Shown piece by piece: positions 3,006 through 27,902 of a stretch of DNA of 28,047 nucleotides. This DNA is from an uncultured Clostridium sp. GTDB taxonomy: Bacteria; Bacillota; Clostridia; Clostridiales; Clostridiaceae. Positions within the stretch are counted from its first letter, which is position 1, and every line of letters begins with the position of its first letter. The stretch is taken from assembly GCA_934746015.1 (NCBI GenBank), contig CAKVEW010000039.1:1-28047 (forward strand), in the 5' to 3' direction. The position numbers were made by a program, and so were the translations under genes. The notes beneath the pieces are model-generated. The model was given only the letters and a program-made list of their open reading frames with translations, was not told where the DNA came from and did not search any database.

Positions 3006-4319
3006 ATGAAAGATGAACAAATGAAAAAAGAAATAAGCCTGTTTATGGCAACTATGTTGGTTTGTGGGAATATGATAGGCTCAGGTATATTTATGTTGCC
3101 AGCTACATTGGCAGAAGTTTCAGGACCTTTTGCTACAATAATTGCATGGGTAATAACAACTATAGGTTCTGTATTGATAGCAATATCCTTTGCAAATCTA
3201 GGATCAAAATACCCGACAACAGGAGGGGCGTATCAATATACCAAAGAAGCCTTTGGAGAGTTTGCTGGATTTTTAAGTGCTTGGTTATATTGGAATGGAT
3301 CATGGATAGGTAATGCAGCTATAATAGTAGCATTAGCTAGTTATAGCACAGCTATAATACCAGCTCTAAATAATCCTATAATATCTATTATTTACACAAG
3401 TGCAATTTTATGGATTTTTACTTTTATTAATATAGTAGGAGTAAAAAAAGCCGGTAAAATTCAATCTTTTGTAACAGTATTTAAAATAGCATTTTTTGCT
3501 TTATTTATAATAGTAGCTTTTTTACATTTTGATAGTTCAAATATTTTACCTATGATACCAGAAAATAAAGGAATTGGAACTATACCTTTAGCGGCTACAT
3601 CTACACTATGGGCTTTTTTAGGCTTAGAAAGTGCAGCTGTGACAGCTGGTGAAATAAGAAATCCTGAAAAAAATATTAGAAAAAGTACTATATATGGTAT
3701 GCTAATTTCTTCTATAATATATATTTTAATTAGTGTAGCTAGTATGGGGGTTATGTCTAATAGTGAATTAGCATTAAGTTCAGCACCATTAACTGACATA
3801 CTTACAAAGATATTAGGTCATGGAATAGGAAAGCCTTTAGCTATTGCAGTTGTTGTTTGTATTTTAGGTACAACAATTGGCTGGCTTTTATCTACGGCAA
3901 GGGTATCATTTGCAGCTGGAGAAGATGGAGTTTTCCCAAAAACTTTTGGTAAGTTGCATCCAAAGTATGGAACACCATCAAATTCATTAATTATAGGCTC
4001 TGTATTAGTTAACATATTATTGATTATGAATTATCAAAAAAGTATGGTATCAACTTTTACTTTTATAACCATTTTAGCTACATTATCATTCTTACCAGTA
4101 TATTTATTAACTGCTGCTGCAGAGATGATGCTTATTTTTAAAGATGAAAAAGAAGTTACAGTAAAATTATTTATTAAGAAAAGTATTATCCCTCTCCTTG
4201 CATTTACATATGCTTTATGGACTATATATGGTTCTGGAGCAGAGATAGTTATGTGGGGATTCATATTAATGTTACTTGGGGTTCCATTTTATATTTATAA
4301 TCACCATAAGAATAAATAA
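3006..4319 (+). CDS. APC-superfamily amino acid permease, probably lysine transporter
   Basis: A 437-residue polytopic membrane protein with about 12 predicted helices. The first helix has the substrate-binding glycine motif GSGIFMLP (residues 25-32), typical of the basic amino acid/polyamine (APA) branch that includes AdiC, CadB and PotE. The lysine riboswitch directly upstream makes lysine the likely substrate, either for uptake or exchange. The family alone does not separate uniport/symport from antiport, and no decarboxylase gene is next to it, which argues mildly against an acid-resistance antiporter. ATG 3006 follows AGGAGA by 5 bases. It ends at its own terminator, so this is a single-gene unit. 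Confidence 0.85.
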   Translation: MKDEQMKKEISLFMATMLVCGNMIGSGIFMLPATLAEVSGPFATIIAWVITTIGSVLIAISFANLGSKYPTTGGAYQYTKEAFGEFAGFLSAWLYWNGSWIGNAAIIVALASYSTAIIPALNNPIISIIYTSAILWIFTFINIVGVKKAGKIQSFVTVFKIAFFALFIIVAFLHFDSSNILPMIPENKGIGTIPLAATSTLWAFLGLESAAVTAGEIRNPEKNIRKSTIYGMLISSIIYILISVASMGVMSNSELALSSAPLTDILTKILGHGIGKPLAIAVVVCILGTTIGWLLSTARVSFAAGEDGVFPKTFGKLHPKYGTPSNSLIIGSVLVNILLIMNYQKSMVSTFTFITILATLSFLPVYLLTAAAEMMLIFKDEKEVTVKLFIKKSIIPLLAFTYALWTIYGSGAEIVMWGFILMLLGVPFYIYNHHKNK

Positions 4320-24075: not shown

Positions 24076-24528
24076 ATGAAAAAAGACGTAAGTGTAGTTA
24101 ATGAACTTTTGGTAAAAATATTTAATGAAATACTTCAAATTGAAGAAAAAACATTAAAAAGTGGGCATTTTTCAGATCTATCTGTAAGGGAAATGCATAC
24201 TATTGAAGCTATTGGAAGAAAAGAAAAAAGAATGATGAGTGAAGTTGCACAAGATTTAGGTATAACAGTTGGAACATTAACTACATCTATTAATAGGCTT
24301 ATAAAAAAGGAATATGTTGAAAGAAGTAGGATAGAAGAGGATAGGAGAGTAGTTCTTGTAGAGCTAACAATGAAAGGAAAGGTAGCACATAGGTTGCATG
24401 AAAGATTTCATAATGAAATGGTTACAACTATGATGGATAACCTTTCTGAAGGTGAAAAAGAAGTTTTGATAGGGGCATTAGGGAAATTAAATGATTATTT
24501 TAAAGAAAAGTGTGAGTCTATAAAATAG
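24076..24528 (+). CDS. MarR-family regulator, FabT-like
   Basis: A 150-residue dimeric winged-helix repressor. The recognition region reads MMSEVAQDLGITVGTLTTSINRLIKKEYVER (shown in part: VAQDLGITVGTLTTSI), with the wing at EEDRRVVLVELT. The opening and DLSVREMHTIEAIG resemble FabT, the fatty acid synthesis repressor of Firmicutes. A FabT-type palindrome lies over its own promoter, which supports the assignment. No fab genes are in the window, so its targets would be elsewhere. The ribosome site (GGATGGG) is imperfect and about 10 bases from the ATG. It is 28 bases before the HutP gene. Confidence 0.82.
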   Translation: MKKDVSVVNELLVKIFNEILQIEEKTLKSGHFSDLSVREMHTIEAIGRKEKRMMSEVAQDLGITVGTLTTSINRLIKKEYVERSRIEEDRRVVLVELTMKGKVAHRLHERFHNEMVTTMMDNLSEGEKEVLIGALGKLNDYFKEKCESIK

Positions 24529-24556: not shown

Positions 24557-24970
24557 ATGGCTAATACAAGCTTGGAAGTTGCAAAATATGCAACAAGAAT
24601 GGCTATTTCATCTAGAGAGGAAGAAGAGGAACTAAAAATTGAACTTAAGAGAAAAGGCATATTAGTTACAGCAGTAAATATAGGTGGAAATATTAATGAT
24701 TCAACTTCCAAAATATTAGAAAGAGCTTTAGTTGCATCTAAAAGAAATGGTCTTATTAGAGAAGAACATTTACATGAAGGTGGTGTTATAGGAGCAACCA
24801 GAGATGCTTTAATGCAGGTATGGAATAGAGCTAGTGGTCAAAATGTTGGAGGTAAAATAGGGATTGCAAAACATGGAGAACATTTAAGTGTATGTATATT
24901 TTTAAGTGTTGGACTTTTGCATCTAGATGAAGTTGTCATAGGAATAGGGCATAGAGCTATACCTAATTAG
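24557..24970 (+). CDS. hutP-like: HutP-family RNA-binding antiterminator, orphan
   Basis: A 137-residue protein of the HutP family. In Bacillus subtilis HutP is a hexamer that, with L-histidine and Mg2+, binds spaced UAG/NAG triplets in the hut leader RNA and prevents termination. Here the ligand-type histidines are present in EEHLHEGG and near the end in IGIGHRAIPN. No histidine utilisation genes are present. It follows the MarR gene by 28 bases (AGGAGG, 5 bases before ATG) and is followed by a terminator. The next transcript begins with a leader carrying four UAG and one AAG at an 8-nt period, a plausible RNA target. Confidence 0.88.
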   Translation: MANTSLEVAKYATRMAISSREEEEELKIELKRKGILVTAVNIGGNINDSTSKILERALVASKRNGLIREEHLHEGGVIGATRDALMQVWNRASGQNVGGKIGIAKHGEHLSVCIFLSVGLLHLDEVVIGIGHRAIPN

Positions 24971-24998
24971 AATTGAAATAAAATAGTATAATATTTGA

Positions 24999-25021
24999 AG
25001 GCACTATGGTGTCTTTTTTTA
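24999..25021 (+). terminator. Terminator of the MarR-HutP unit
   Basis: A 6-bp stem with one G-U pair (24999-25004 with 25009-25014, loop TATG) is followed by at least six T. Confidence 0.75.
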
Positions 25022-25042
25022 TTTAAAAAATAACTTTATATA

Positions 25043-25071
25043 TTTACAAAAAAAACTAATTGTGATATTAT
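25043..25071 (+). promoter_or_regulatory. Promoter of the ABC transporter operon
   Basis: TTTACA (25043-25048), 17 bp, TATTAT (25066-25071) with an extended TGA directly before the -10. The start would be near 25078, leaving a leader of about 145 bases. Confidence 0.65.
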
Positions 25072-25091
25072 ATGATAAATATAAAAGTGGT

Positions 25092-25200
25092 AATAAAATC
25101 TTAAGAATAATATCAAAATATTATATTTTATATAATATTTATAGTAAATTAGGAAAGTAGAATTGTAGGAATTAAGATTTTATTAAAATCAGAAGTGTTT
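25092..25200 (+). promoter_or_regulatory. Structured leader with periodic UAG triplets
   Basis: A perfect 13-bp stem pairs 25092-25104 with 25172-25184. Inside it a 10-bp hairpin forms (25116-25125 with 25131-25140). Between that hairpin and the 3' arm lie UAG at 25142, 25150, 25158 and 25166, then AAG at 25174: exactly 8 nt apart. The 3' arm can instead fold as GATTTT (25176-25181) with AAAATC (25185-25190), followed after seven bases by six T. The two folds exclude each other, as in attenuators. There is no T-box motif. HutP-family binding is the leading guess. Confidence 0.55.
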
Positions 25201-25223
25201 TTTATAATAGGAGGATGGTAAAG

Positions 25224-26228
25224 ATGGTAGGAAAAAAGAAAGTTGTAATGGGGTTATTAGCTTTTATTGTAGCTAGTACCTTCGTTGGATGTAAAGAGGA
25301 TGGAAAAGAATCTTCAAGCAAAGAAGCAAAATACAATATAGGTATTAGTCAATTGGTTCAACATCCAGCGCTAGATTCGGCAAGGGAAGGATTTATTGAA
25401 GGATTAAAAGAAAAGGGATATGAAGAAGGTAAGAATATAACTTTTGATTATCAAAATGCTCAAGGAGACAATCCCACTTCTCAAACAATAGCACAAAAGT
25501 TCACATCAGAGAAAAAAGATTTAATTCTTGCTATTGCAACTACTTCAGCACAAGCAGTATATAATTCAACTAAAGAAATACCAACAGTTTTTACTGCTGT
25601 TACTGATCCAGTTGAAGCTGGTATAGCTAAAGATTGGAAAAGTTCTGGAACTAATTTAACAGGAGTTTCAGATATGGTTCCAGTAGATAAGCAGCTTGAT
25701 TTATTGCTTAAACTTAAACCTGATATTAAGACACTAGGAGTAATATATAATACTTCTGAAGCAAATTCAGTAGTTCAAGTGGAAGCTTTAAAAAAAGAAG
25801 CAAGTAAATTAAATATAACAATAAAGGAAATTGGAATTACAAATGTAAATGAAATAAATCAAAATTTAAGTGCAGTTATAAAAGATATTGATGCCTTATA
25901 TACACCAACAGATAATACTGTGGCTTCAGCTTATGATTTAGTTGGACAAATTGCTGTAAAAAATAATGTGCCAATATTAGGAGCAGAAGAAGCTGTTGTA
26001 TCTAAAGGTGGGTTATGTTCAATTGGAATAGATTATTTTAAACTTGGAAAAGAAACTGGATACAAAGCTGCTGAAATATTAGAGGGTAAGAAACCAGAAG
26101 AAATAGAAATTACTACATTAAGTGATATGAGTATTGTAATAAATACTGATGTGGCTAATAAATTAAATATTAGCATTCCAAGTGAAATTAAAGATAATGC
26201 AAAGAGTGTAACTGGAGGTGTTAACTAG
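25224..26228 (+). CDS. trpX-like: ABC transporter substrate-binding lipoprotein, TrpX type
   Basis: A 334-residue lipoprotein of the ABC_sub_bind family. The signal peptide ends in the lipobox TFVGC, with C23 as lipidated residue. The mature protein has two lobes, with motifs YNIGISQLVQHPALD, FTAVTDPVEAG, YTPTDNTVASA and GGLCSIGIDYFKLG. In streptococci such systems bind tryptophan or other aromatic residues; the ligand here is not proven. ATG 25224 lies 9 bases after AGGAGG (25209-25214); the ATG at 25215 abuts it. It is the first gene of the operon; its stop overlaps the permease start by one base. Confidence 0.9.
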   Translation: MVGKKKVVMGLLAFIVASTFVGCKEDGKESSSKEAKYNIGISQLVQHPALDSAREGFIEGLKEKGYEEGKNITFDYQNAQGDNPTSQTIAQKFTSEKKDLILAIATTSAQAVYNSTKEIPTVFTAVTDPVEAGIAKDWKSSGTNLTGVSDMVPVDKQLDLLLKLKPDIKTLGVIYNTSEANSVVQVEALKKEASKLNITIKEIGITNVNEINQNLSAVIKDIDALYTPTDNTVASAYDLVGQIAVKNNVPILGAEEAVVSKGGLCSIGIDYFKLGKETGYKAAEILEGKKPEEIEITTLSDMSIVINTDVANKLNISIPSEIKDNAKSVTGGVN

Positions 26229-27142
26229 TGGATTTTGTAATTAATGTTTTAGAACAAGGGTTGCTTTTTGGAATAGTTGCTATAGGAGTCTATATTACTT
26301 ATAAAATTTTAGACTTTCCTGATCTTTCTGTAGATGGAACTTATCCATTAGGAGCAGCTATATGTGCAGCTTTACTAGTTAAAGATGTAAATCCTTGGTT
26401 AGCAGTTTTAGTAGCAACTATAGGGGGTGCTATAGCTGGGTTAGCCACTGCACTTTTGAATGTAAAACTTAAAATCACTAATTTAATGTCTGGAATATTA
26501 GTGATGATAGGCCTATATTCAATAAATTTAATGGTGATGGGGCAATCGAACATTCCATTATTTAATACTAAAAGTATTTTTACTGGAAAATATAATATAA
26601 TTATTATTATAATAATTACTTTAGTAGTAAAGATAGCTTTTGATTTATTTTTAAAAACAAAGCTTGGTAATTTACTTATTGCAGTTGGGGATAATGAACA
26701 ATTAGTTACTTCATTAGGAATAAATAAAAATAATATAAAAGTTTTAGGCTTAATGATAAGTAATGGATTAGTTGCTTTAAGTGGGGCTTTAACTGCTCAA
26801 TATCAAGGATTTTCAGATGCTAGTATGGGAACTGGAGTAGTTGTTATGGGGCTAGCAGCAGTTATAATAGGGGCTTCAATATTTAAAAAAGTGAGTTTTA
26901 TGAAGTACACAACAATTTCAATATTTGGAGCTATAATCTATAAGCTAGCTATAGCAATGGCATTAAAATTTGGCTTAAATCCAAATTATTTAAAACTAAT
27001 GACAGCAGTTATAGTTATAATTGCTTTGAGTTTAAATTCAGGAGTATTTAAGTCAAAAAGAAAGAAAGCTAAGAGTGGTGTAACAAATAGAGAAGGCGGT
27101 GATGTAAATGCTAAAGATTCAAGCGTTGCACAAAGTCTTTAA
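26228..27142 (+). CDS. trpY-like: ABC transporter permease, TrpY type
   Basis: A 304-residue membrane protein with about eight to nine helices of the branched-chain-type permease superfamily. Typical segments are DFPDLSVDGTYPLGAA near the N-terminus and GDNEQLVTSLGINKNNIKVLGL in the coupling region. GTG 26228 shares its G with the stop of the lipoprotein gene, and GGAGGTG lies 6-7 bases before it. The last 35 bases overlap the ATPase gene. Confidence 0.9.
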   Translation: MDFVINVLEQGLLFGIVAIGVYITYKILDFPDLSVDGTYPLGAAICAALLVKDVNPWLAVLVATIGGAIAGLATALLNVKLKITNLMSGILVMIGLYSINLMVMGQSNIPLFNTKSIFTGKYNIIIIIIITLVVKIAFDLFLKTKLGNLLIAVGDNEQLVTSLGINKNNIKVLGLMISNGLVALSGALTAQYQGFSDASMGTGVVVMGLAAVIIGASIFKKVSFMKYTTISIFGAIIYKLAIAMALKFGLNPNYLKLMTAVIVIIALSLNSGVFKSKRKKAKSGVTNREGGDVNAKDSSVAQSL

Positions 27143-27902
27143 TGAAAATACAATAAATGAAAATAAGGTATTCTCTGATTTTTCTTTAGAAGTAAAGGAA
27201 GGAGATTTTATTAGTATAATAGGATCTAATGGTGCTGGAAAGTCAACATTATTAAATATTATATCTGGGAATATTCAATGTGATGAAGGAATAATTGAAA
27301 TAAATGGAGAAGATGTTTCAAATAAAGATGAATATAAAAGATCAAAAATGATAGGAAGAGTATTTCAAAATCCATCATTAGGTGTTGCTCCTAATATGAC
27401 AATATTAGAAAATTTATCTTTAGCAGATAATAAAGGAAAGAAATTTGGATTAACTCTTGGAATTAATAGAAAAAGGATTCCATATTATGAAAAGCTTCTT
27501 AAAGAATTAGATTTAGGTCTTGAAGATAAGCTATATAACAAGGTTAATCTATTGTCAGGAGGCCAACGACAAGCTTTGAGTATGTTAATTGCAGTTATGT
27601 CTAAGCCTGAGCTGTTATTATTAGATGAGCATACAGCAGCATTAGATCCAAAAACTTCATTAAAAATAATGGAAATAACAGAAAGAATTGTAAGGGAAAC
27701 TAATATTACAACTATGATGATAACACATAATTTAAAGCAAGCAATAAAAACAGGAAATAGACTAATAATGATGCATAGTGGTAAAATACTACTAGATGTT
27801 AAAGGAAAAGAAAAGGAAGAGTTAACAACAGAAAAATTAATGAATTTATTTAAAGATGCTAATATTAATGATGATTTAAGTGATAGAAGTTTATTAGCAT
27901 AA
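27108..27902 (+). CDS. trpZ-like: ABC transporter ATPase, TrpZ type
   Basis: A 264-residue ATPase with Walker A GSNGAGKST, Q-loop VFQNPSLG, signature LSGGQRQALSM, Walker B LLLLDEHTAALD and the switch histidine in MITHN. A His after the Walker B glutamate (DEH) is usual for this branch. It powers the transporter formed with the two preceding products. ATG 27108 overlaps the permease gene; the ribosome site (AGGCGGTGA) is weak, suggesting translational coupling. Confidence 0.92.
   Translation: MLKIQALHKVFNENTINENKVFSDFSLEVKEGDFISIIGSNGAGKSTLLNIISGNIQCDEGIIEINGEDVSNKDEYKRSKMIGRVFQNPSLGVAPNMTILENLSLADNKGKKFGLTLGINRKRIPYYEKLLKELDLGLEDKLYNKVNLLSGGQRQALSMLIAVMSKPELLLLDEHTAALDPKTSLKIMEITERIVRETNITTMMITHNLKQAIKTGNRLIMMHSGKILLDVKGKEKEELTTEKLMNLFKDANINDDLSDRSLLA

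Follow-up and report, generated by a model that had tools for sequence, protein, structure and literature searches.

To our knowledge, HutP is known from a single system, histidine breakdown in bacilli. The Bacillus subtilis protein is a histidine-dependent hexamer that acts on spaced UAG/NAG triplets with four-base spacers, and we take its metal-ligating residues to be His73, His77 and His138, a numbering checked on the PDB chain. TRAP also reads triplets; in its ligand-bound form it occupies triplet repeats with spacers of 2-3 nt and brings about either termination or a block of the ribosome-binding site. For B. subtilis HutP, the consulted part of PMC7430163 describes two clusters of three NAG triplets with 20 nt spacing, and prevention of terminator formation is described there and in the corresponding part of PMC8934654. 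Among the papers listed from the open-licence literature, judged by titles and abstract openings, none concerned a Clostridium HutP that regulates uptake, and HutP does not occur in PMC9413887, which deals with histidine regulation in Firmicutes. Here we describe a HutP-family gene beside an ABC transporter operon in a 28,047-nt stretch of DNA from an uncultured Clostridium sp., which we refer to in full as the window.

The orphan hutP gene and the transporter leader

The HutP-family gene of the window (24557..24970, + strand) encodes a protein that passes profile PF09021 with 147.8 bits against a cut-off of 25, and its predicted monomer has the HutP fold. The sequence alone returned only unrelated matches from the PDB; the relation to the HutP structures deposited there was recovered only through the fold, or with a profile that included canonical copies. 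At the three positions of the metal-ligating histidines the window protein has Gly75, Gly79 and Glu125, residues that are invariant in the 22 sequences compared, whereas three clostridial HutPs that adjoin hutH (L368-L370, with hutH recognized by eye) retain all three histidines. Such canonical hutP-hutH pairs are present in three genomes of the order, whose HutPs mostly belong to the orphan subfamily. The window protein has neither of two marks of a canonical hut-type HutP, hutH linkage and the metal-ligating histidines, and no hut genes were seen in the window, where the open reading frames were read by eye and six proteins were profiled. The protein is thus a member of the HutP family by fold and profile that lies outside hut-type HutP.

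A FabT-like regulator gene of the MarR type (24076..24528, +; NF050133, 169.1 bits, under the cut-off of 200) ends 28 nt 5' of hutP, and the two are possibly carried on one transcript. In 18 of the 65 loci found by our collection scan a relative of this gene lies 5' of hutP; no connection of the FabT-like regulator to fatty acid genes was seen. The terminator scan placed a terminator-like hairpin 3' of hutP (24997..25016, +); beyond it comes a promoter-like site, TTTACA-17-TATTAT with a TG (25043..25071, +), which is a consensus match only. From this site transcription would be predicted to start near 25078, so that the transporter leader is probably a transcript of its own. The operon encodes a substrate-binding lipoprotein predicted to be tyrosine-specific (25224..26228), an ABC permease (26228..27142; PF02653) and an ABC ATPase (27108..27902; PF00005), all on the + strand. 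Elsewhere in the window, a lysine riboswitch (2764-2936) lies ahead of an amino acid permease-like gene (3006-4319).

Array I of the leader (25142..25176, +) consists of UAG at 25142, 25150, 25158 and 25166 and AAG at 25174, an exact 8-nt period; the region reads atttaTAGtaaatTAGgaaagTAGaattgTAGgaattAAGatttt. The first-pass annotation had placed these triplets correctly, in the leader of an ABC operon 3' of a HutP-family gene, and had noticed no other such run in the window. The four-UAG pattern matches once in the 28 kb, both strands included, and in none of 100 shuffles. In the predicted folds a long stem that pairs 25091-25104 with 25172-25185 (25091..25185, +) encloses an inner hairpin at 25117-25139 together with the UAG array. 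Most of the array is single-stranded in the centroid structure; the leader folds no better than shuffles do (z -0.90 and -0.66). The C. beijerinckii leader (L039) also has a long stem and inner hairpin that leave the array largely unpaired, and this leader has a strong fold (z -3.89, 0 of 200 shuffles). Array II (25208..25230, +) extends over the Shine-Dalgarno sequence and the start codon, with UAG at 25208, GAG at 25211, UAA at 25219, the ATG at 25224 and UAG at 25228. In the window it is irregular, the only 8-nt step being that from GAG to UAA, with the final UAG 9 nt further on. The terminator scan found no strong terminator in the window leader, its sole hit being the hairpin 3' of hutP. 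A T-box or other known riboswitch was rejected for this leader, which gave no Rfam match up to E 1.

Conservation of the arrays and their tie to HutP

A scan of 84,980 species genomes gave 65 hutP loci, one of them spurious (L065, 29 residues, not HutP) and one cut before its stop codon (L003). The window together with the 37 loci in which a binding-protein gene starts at most 1.3 kb from the hutP start made up a set of 38 leaders. In these, two UAG triplets stand 8 nt apart 59 times, against 6.7 (sd 2.6) in 500 dinucleotide shuffles, whereas a distance of 7 is not enriched (5 against 6.7) and a distance of 6 is absent. An excess is also seen at distances of 3, 5, 9, 11, 19 and 27 (33, 19, 16, 27, 25 and 17, respectively, against about 6), and we think most of it due to the start-site motif and to doublets (UAGUAG, UAGnnUAGUAG) that lie on the 8-nt lattice. 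UAG-N5-UAG is present in 25 of the 38 leaders when the final 40 nt are excluded.

The binding protein was also sought in 225 genomes of one order, of which 118 were positive. This gave 143 matches and 140 upstream regions that were read; the remaining three are partial matches, two of them in G060 and one in G195. The ATGGTAG-start subset, 109 of the 128 regions from HutP-positive genomes, supplied 108 distinct leaders, with the start site itself excluded from the counts of chains. At least three NAG triplets at an exact 8-nt period, at least two of them UAG, occur in 40 of the 108, against 3.0 in dinucleotide shuffles; relatives that have both genes thus keep the triplet period, the point that the first-pass annotation had proposed to check. 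Such chains are not in excess at period 7 (2 vs. 3.7) or 10 (3 vs. 3.8) and are mildly raised at 6 (14 vs. 5.5) and 9 (13 vs. 3.9). When chains of at least three UAG or GAG triplets were counted against mononucleotide shuffles, 31 leaders had one at 8 nt (1.0 expected) and 2 at 7 nt (1.2 expected); a further excess at 5-6 nt (19 of 108 vs. 3.3) we take to represent UAGnnUAGUAG doublets on the 8-nt lattice. The spacer consensus across the 108 leaders is W-A-U-D-G. A five-base spacer, which the first-pass annotation had set against the four bases of B. subtilis HutP, is the rule of this subfamily and no oddity of the window.

Three UAG at 8 nt are common by chance genome-wide, so that a bare run of this kind proves nothing alone and conservation is what counts. 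NAG chains at 8 nt were found in 8 of the 38 transporter leaders vs. 2 of the 251 leaders of other genes in these loci, and one of those two (L057) belongs to an open reading frame within the operon's own leader. The longest array seen has seven UAG in register (L381). Close relatives of the window (L006, L126 and L129) retain the core UAGAAUUGUAGG; in L012 an AAG and a UAG 8 nt apart are kept with a GAG 7 further, and L002 keeps little of the core. Twelve of the 83 hutP-linked leaders have no UAG-N5-UAG within 350 nt; the upstream regions of such linked genes can take in some hutP coding sequence. Upstream of the operon in C. tagluense (L060), UAGGUAAUG is repeated at a 9-nt period with five UAG, a different pitch.

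The second set of triplets lies on the start site. ATGGTAG begins 82 of the 83 hutP-linked transporter genes; it is translated as Met-Val, and its UAG lies outside the reading frame. One large group has GAGGAUGGUAGUAUGGUAG across the entire initiation site, which places the Shine-Dalgarno GAG, a UAG and another UAG at 0, 8 and 16. The strict motif GRGGAYGGTAGNATGGTAG has 48 matches in 46 of the 225 genomes, all 46 of them HutP-positive, and its reversed control has none. Forty-six of these matches stand at this transporter, including cases where hutP lies elsewhere (45 at a listed binding-protein match and one at a frame-broken copy in G195); the other two stand at another gene. A close variant in the family of G004 occurs in 10 of 71 genomes, all within the 14 that are HutP-positive. 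A looser form is found in 71 of the 225 genomes, three of which have no HutP match: in G017 and G019 it stands at one same unrelated gene family, and in G215 the contig begins 246 nt 5' of the binding protein.

HutP itself is present in 130 of the 225 genomes of the order. UAG-N5-UAG occurs at most 350 nt upstream of the transporter in 86 of 106 HutP-positive vs. 0 of 11 HutP-negative genomes (Fisher 9.8e-8); like the other genome counts, this one carries no correction for kinship. Arrays are kept at targets away from hutP (e.g., L075, L178 and L238), and in L178, L185, L224, L235, L238 and L239 hutP lies 3.5 to 810 kb from the array-bearing target. In G011 (which contains L047) hutP and the transporter are on separate contigs, and the leader still has the start motif and a strong terminator as well as two arrays. 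For several HutP-positive genomes no target was found. TRAP can be ruled out as the reader of the arrays, since its profile (PF02081) finds nothing in the 225 genomes of the order, a set without the window's own genome, and detects the B. subtilis positive control; the earlier judgement that TRAP with its 2-3 base spacers does not fit is borne out by this result and by the 5-nt spacers of the window, even though other leaders show the raised distance of 5 and the short chains at 5-6 nt. The array system is real, conserved and tied to HutP, and very probably it is regulatory. The original proposal, a HutP-family switch that would use periodic UAG triplets to control the uptake of amino acids, gains support from the conserved period and from the tie to HutP presence. 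It did not include the start-site set, the framing stem, the attenuator form of other clades or the targets remote from hutP.

Ligand, mechanism and rival explanations

The closest solved relative of the window binding protein is C. difficile CD0873 (6hni), which binds tyrosine and whose Glu263 is bonded to the hydroxyl of that ligand; relatives that bind phenylalanine or tryptophan have Ala at position 263, and the tryptophan binder has Gln in place of Tyr279 (from the consulted part of PMC6816091). The window protein has Glu and Tyr at the positions of 263 and 279, a tyrosine-type signature. Among 75 binding proteins of HutP-positive genomes, 71 are Glu/Tyr, two Glu/Phe and two Asp/Tyr; counted as 56 distinct proteins, the numbers are 53, 2 and 1. 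By comparison, paralogs under T-boxes with a UUC specifier are Val/Tyr in five of six, the sixth (L358) being Glu/Tyr, and both a UGG paralog (L357) and a T-box-like neighbour (L360) are Val/Asn; specifiers were read by eye off the Rfam alignment, and L354 (UUC) and L360 were assigned by leader pattern, with no Rfam hit. Two loci (L203 and L236) have tandem T-boxes, two in each, ahead of a paralogous binding-protein operon. The other binding proteins, from HutP-negative genomes, are mostly Glu/Tyr as well, so that these residues mark the substrate, not the regulator.

A second target is a sodium symporter, which the start motif precedes in two genomes and whose closest solved relative is 4us3, presumably MhsT. 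It was sought in 22 HutP-positive genomes that lack the ABC operon, together with G162 and G166, and was present in 19 of these 24. Twelve of 23 close symporters have a short upstream open reading frame that is rich in Tyr and ends like AYYSNYYR, and UAG-N5-UAG occurs in the 300 nt upstream in 8 of the 12 with this peptide vs. 3 of the 11 without it. Both of the symporter leaders examined in full have tandem terminators, CCACATAG..CTATGTGG. The Tyr-rich peptide has a YYxxYY form upstream of the symporters of L324-L331, L333-L335 and L351; these leaders look like a ribosome-stalling tyrosine attenuator, one that we have not seen described before, and the two leaders examined in full seem to combine stalling on Tyr codons with HutP. 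A close symporter was found in 3 of the 70 HutP-negative genomes searched (of 96 without HutP above the cut-off). In one of them (G178) the closest symporter copy comes with the Tyr peptide but lacks an array. Another (G043, L385) has the peptide and a partial array, which counts against the HutP reading; the HutP profile finds nothing credible in either genome, and recent loss or an assembly gap is suggested for G043. With a Tyr-codon attenuator on array-bearing leaders here and a tyrosine-type binding protein elsewhere, tyrosine is the best guess for the ligand. We regard it as likely, on the evidence of the targets and not of the pocket of the HutP protein.

The explanation that fits best, and one that we consider probable, is a tyrosine-responsive HutP-family repressor of tyrosine uptake that works through two NAG arrays at an 8-nt pitch. 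The protein would be an RNA-binding sensor of tyrosine, or of a close aromatic relative, that switches off tyrosine uptake. A ligand-loaded, HutP-like hexamer would bind the NAG triplets at their 8-nt pitch, array I being presented beside the stem of the leader and array II over the transporter's Shine-Dalgarno sequence and start codon. Two sets per leader would fit one hexamer, given the pair of three-NAG clusters bound by B. subtilis HutP. Protein on array II would cover the Shine-Dalgarno sequence and the AUG, so that ribosome binding is blocked. At the G162 symporter the leader, counted from a promoter-like sequence recognized by eye, would measure a few dozen nt and hold little beyond the start-site array. 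In clades other than that of the window there is a putative attenuator version. Terminator-like hairpins were found by a simple scan in 41 of 109 leaders, although nine of them lie more than 190 nt 5' of the start and perhaps belong to other genes. In many relatives array I closes with a UAG that is part of UAGGAGA, a stretch able to pair with the 5' arm of an intrinsic terminator; complementarity of at least 6 nt between array end and arm was present in 20 of the 28 leaders with a CTC-type arm within 190 nt, vs. about 7 expected from mononucleotide shuffles, and in L206, where the arm is CUCUCCCUA, the array reads UAGGGA. A bound array I would then occupy the would-be antiterminator strand and free the terminator, and transcription would stop as well.

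The same protein, targets and ligand could also serve activation, with ligand-bound HutP acting by antitermination or by unmasking the ribosome-binding site. The precedent of B. subtilis HutP, which prevents terminator formation, speaks for this, as do the terminator-like hairpins just described, apart from the nine distant ones. We nevertheless hold activation to be unlikely: the location of array II on the Shine-Dalgarno sequence and start codon speaks for blocking, the end of array I falls in the would-be antiterminator strand and not in the terminator, and uptake systems are usually shut by plenty. It is unlikely, too, that the ligand is not tyrosine but another aromatic compound such as phenylalanine, tryptophan or 4-hydroxyphenylpyruvate. 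Paralogous operons do stand under Phe- or Trp-type T-boxes, and MhsT also takes tryptophan; against this, five of the six UUC T-box paralogs have Val instead of Glu at the tyrosine position, and the symporter leader peptides are rich in Tyr.

The first-pass annotation had named histidine as a possible effector, in which case the protein would couple histidine status to the transporter. Its fold and its NAG-triplet targets are indeed those of B. subtilis HutP, and clostridial hut leaders also carry UAG at 7-8 nt. Yet all three metal-holding histidines are replaced in a protein whose relatives adjoining hutH keep them, the binding protein has a tyrosine signature and the second target a Tyr leader peptide. 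With those histidines replaced and with targets that suggest tyrosine, histidine is probably not the ligand; we judge that effector unlikely, and a histidine-sensing protein at this transporter improbable. Lastly, the arrays might be read by another protein or be a by-product of AT-rich leaders and Shine-Dalgarno sequences, with HutP a bystander. The chance frequency of UAG triples at 8 nt and the excess of 5-6 nt chains over mononucleotide shuffles lend themselves to such a view. It appears very improbable in the face of the shuffle and other-leader controls, the tie to HutP presence whether hutP is adjacent or not, and the lack of TRAP, the other known triplet reader, throughout the 225 genomes. 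The reading that we retain is that of a tyrosine-responsive repressor of tyrosine uptake.

Implications and comparison with known systems

On balance we favour a broader statement, that Clostridia have turned the HutP fold into a tyrosine-sensing, RNA-binding repressor, a tyrosine counterpart of TRAP, with two 8-nt UAG arrays of which one lies in the Shine-Dalgarno sequence, start and first codons, and that this form far outnumbers the hut-type in the order. In that case most proteins named 'hut operon positive regulator' there would be wrongly named. If this is true, the HutP fold has come to serve another amino acid besides histidine, and in an opposite role, the shut-off of uptake; its binding site is partly written in the coding start of its target; and a function is assigned to a protein of 130 of the 225 genomes in one order. 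The histidine and tyrosine forms of HutP would be a natural pair for the study of ligand change in an RNA-binding hexamer. The system would also bear on the clostridial gating of tyrosine, which C. difficile ferments to p-cresol (consulted part of PMC6816091).

The binding protein is homologous to CD0873 (6HNI) and to TrpX/SP1069 (3LFT), and the window protein shares its Glu and Tyr with CD0873. In Streptococcus suis, according to the consulted part of PMC9382623, trpXYZ is under a Trp T-box; the regulatory element there is thus a T-box, whereas here it would be the UAG arrays. T-boxes control paralogous operons in the same order as well, and none was found in the window leader. With TRAP, the system would share a similar logic, although the protein is unrelated and the spacers are mainly 5 nt, compared with 2-3 for TRAP. 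The closest comparison is with the HutP of B. subtilis and Geobacillus. Common to both are the fold, clusters of NAG triplets in the leader and the number of two clusters; different here are the absence of adjoining hut genes, the loss of the metal-ligand histidines, the uptake targets and the position of one set on the start codon. The pitch is 8 nt here vs. 7 in B. subtilis HutP. However, in a clostridial hut leader beside a canonical hutP (L368) UAG triplets stand at both 7 and 8 nt directly before a strong terminator (fold z -3.3), and two others (L369 and L370) have one UAG pair at 8 nt each. Since clostridial hut leaders mix the two spacings, pitch draws no sharp line between the HutP subfamilies.
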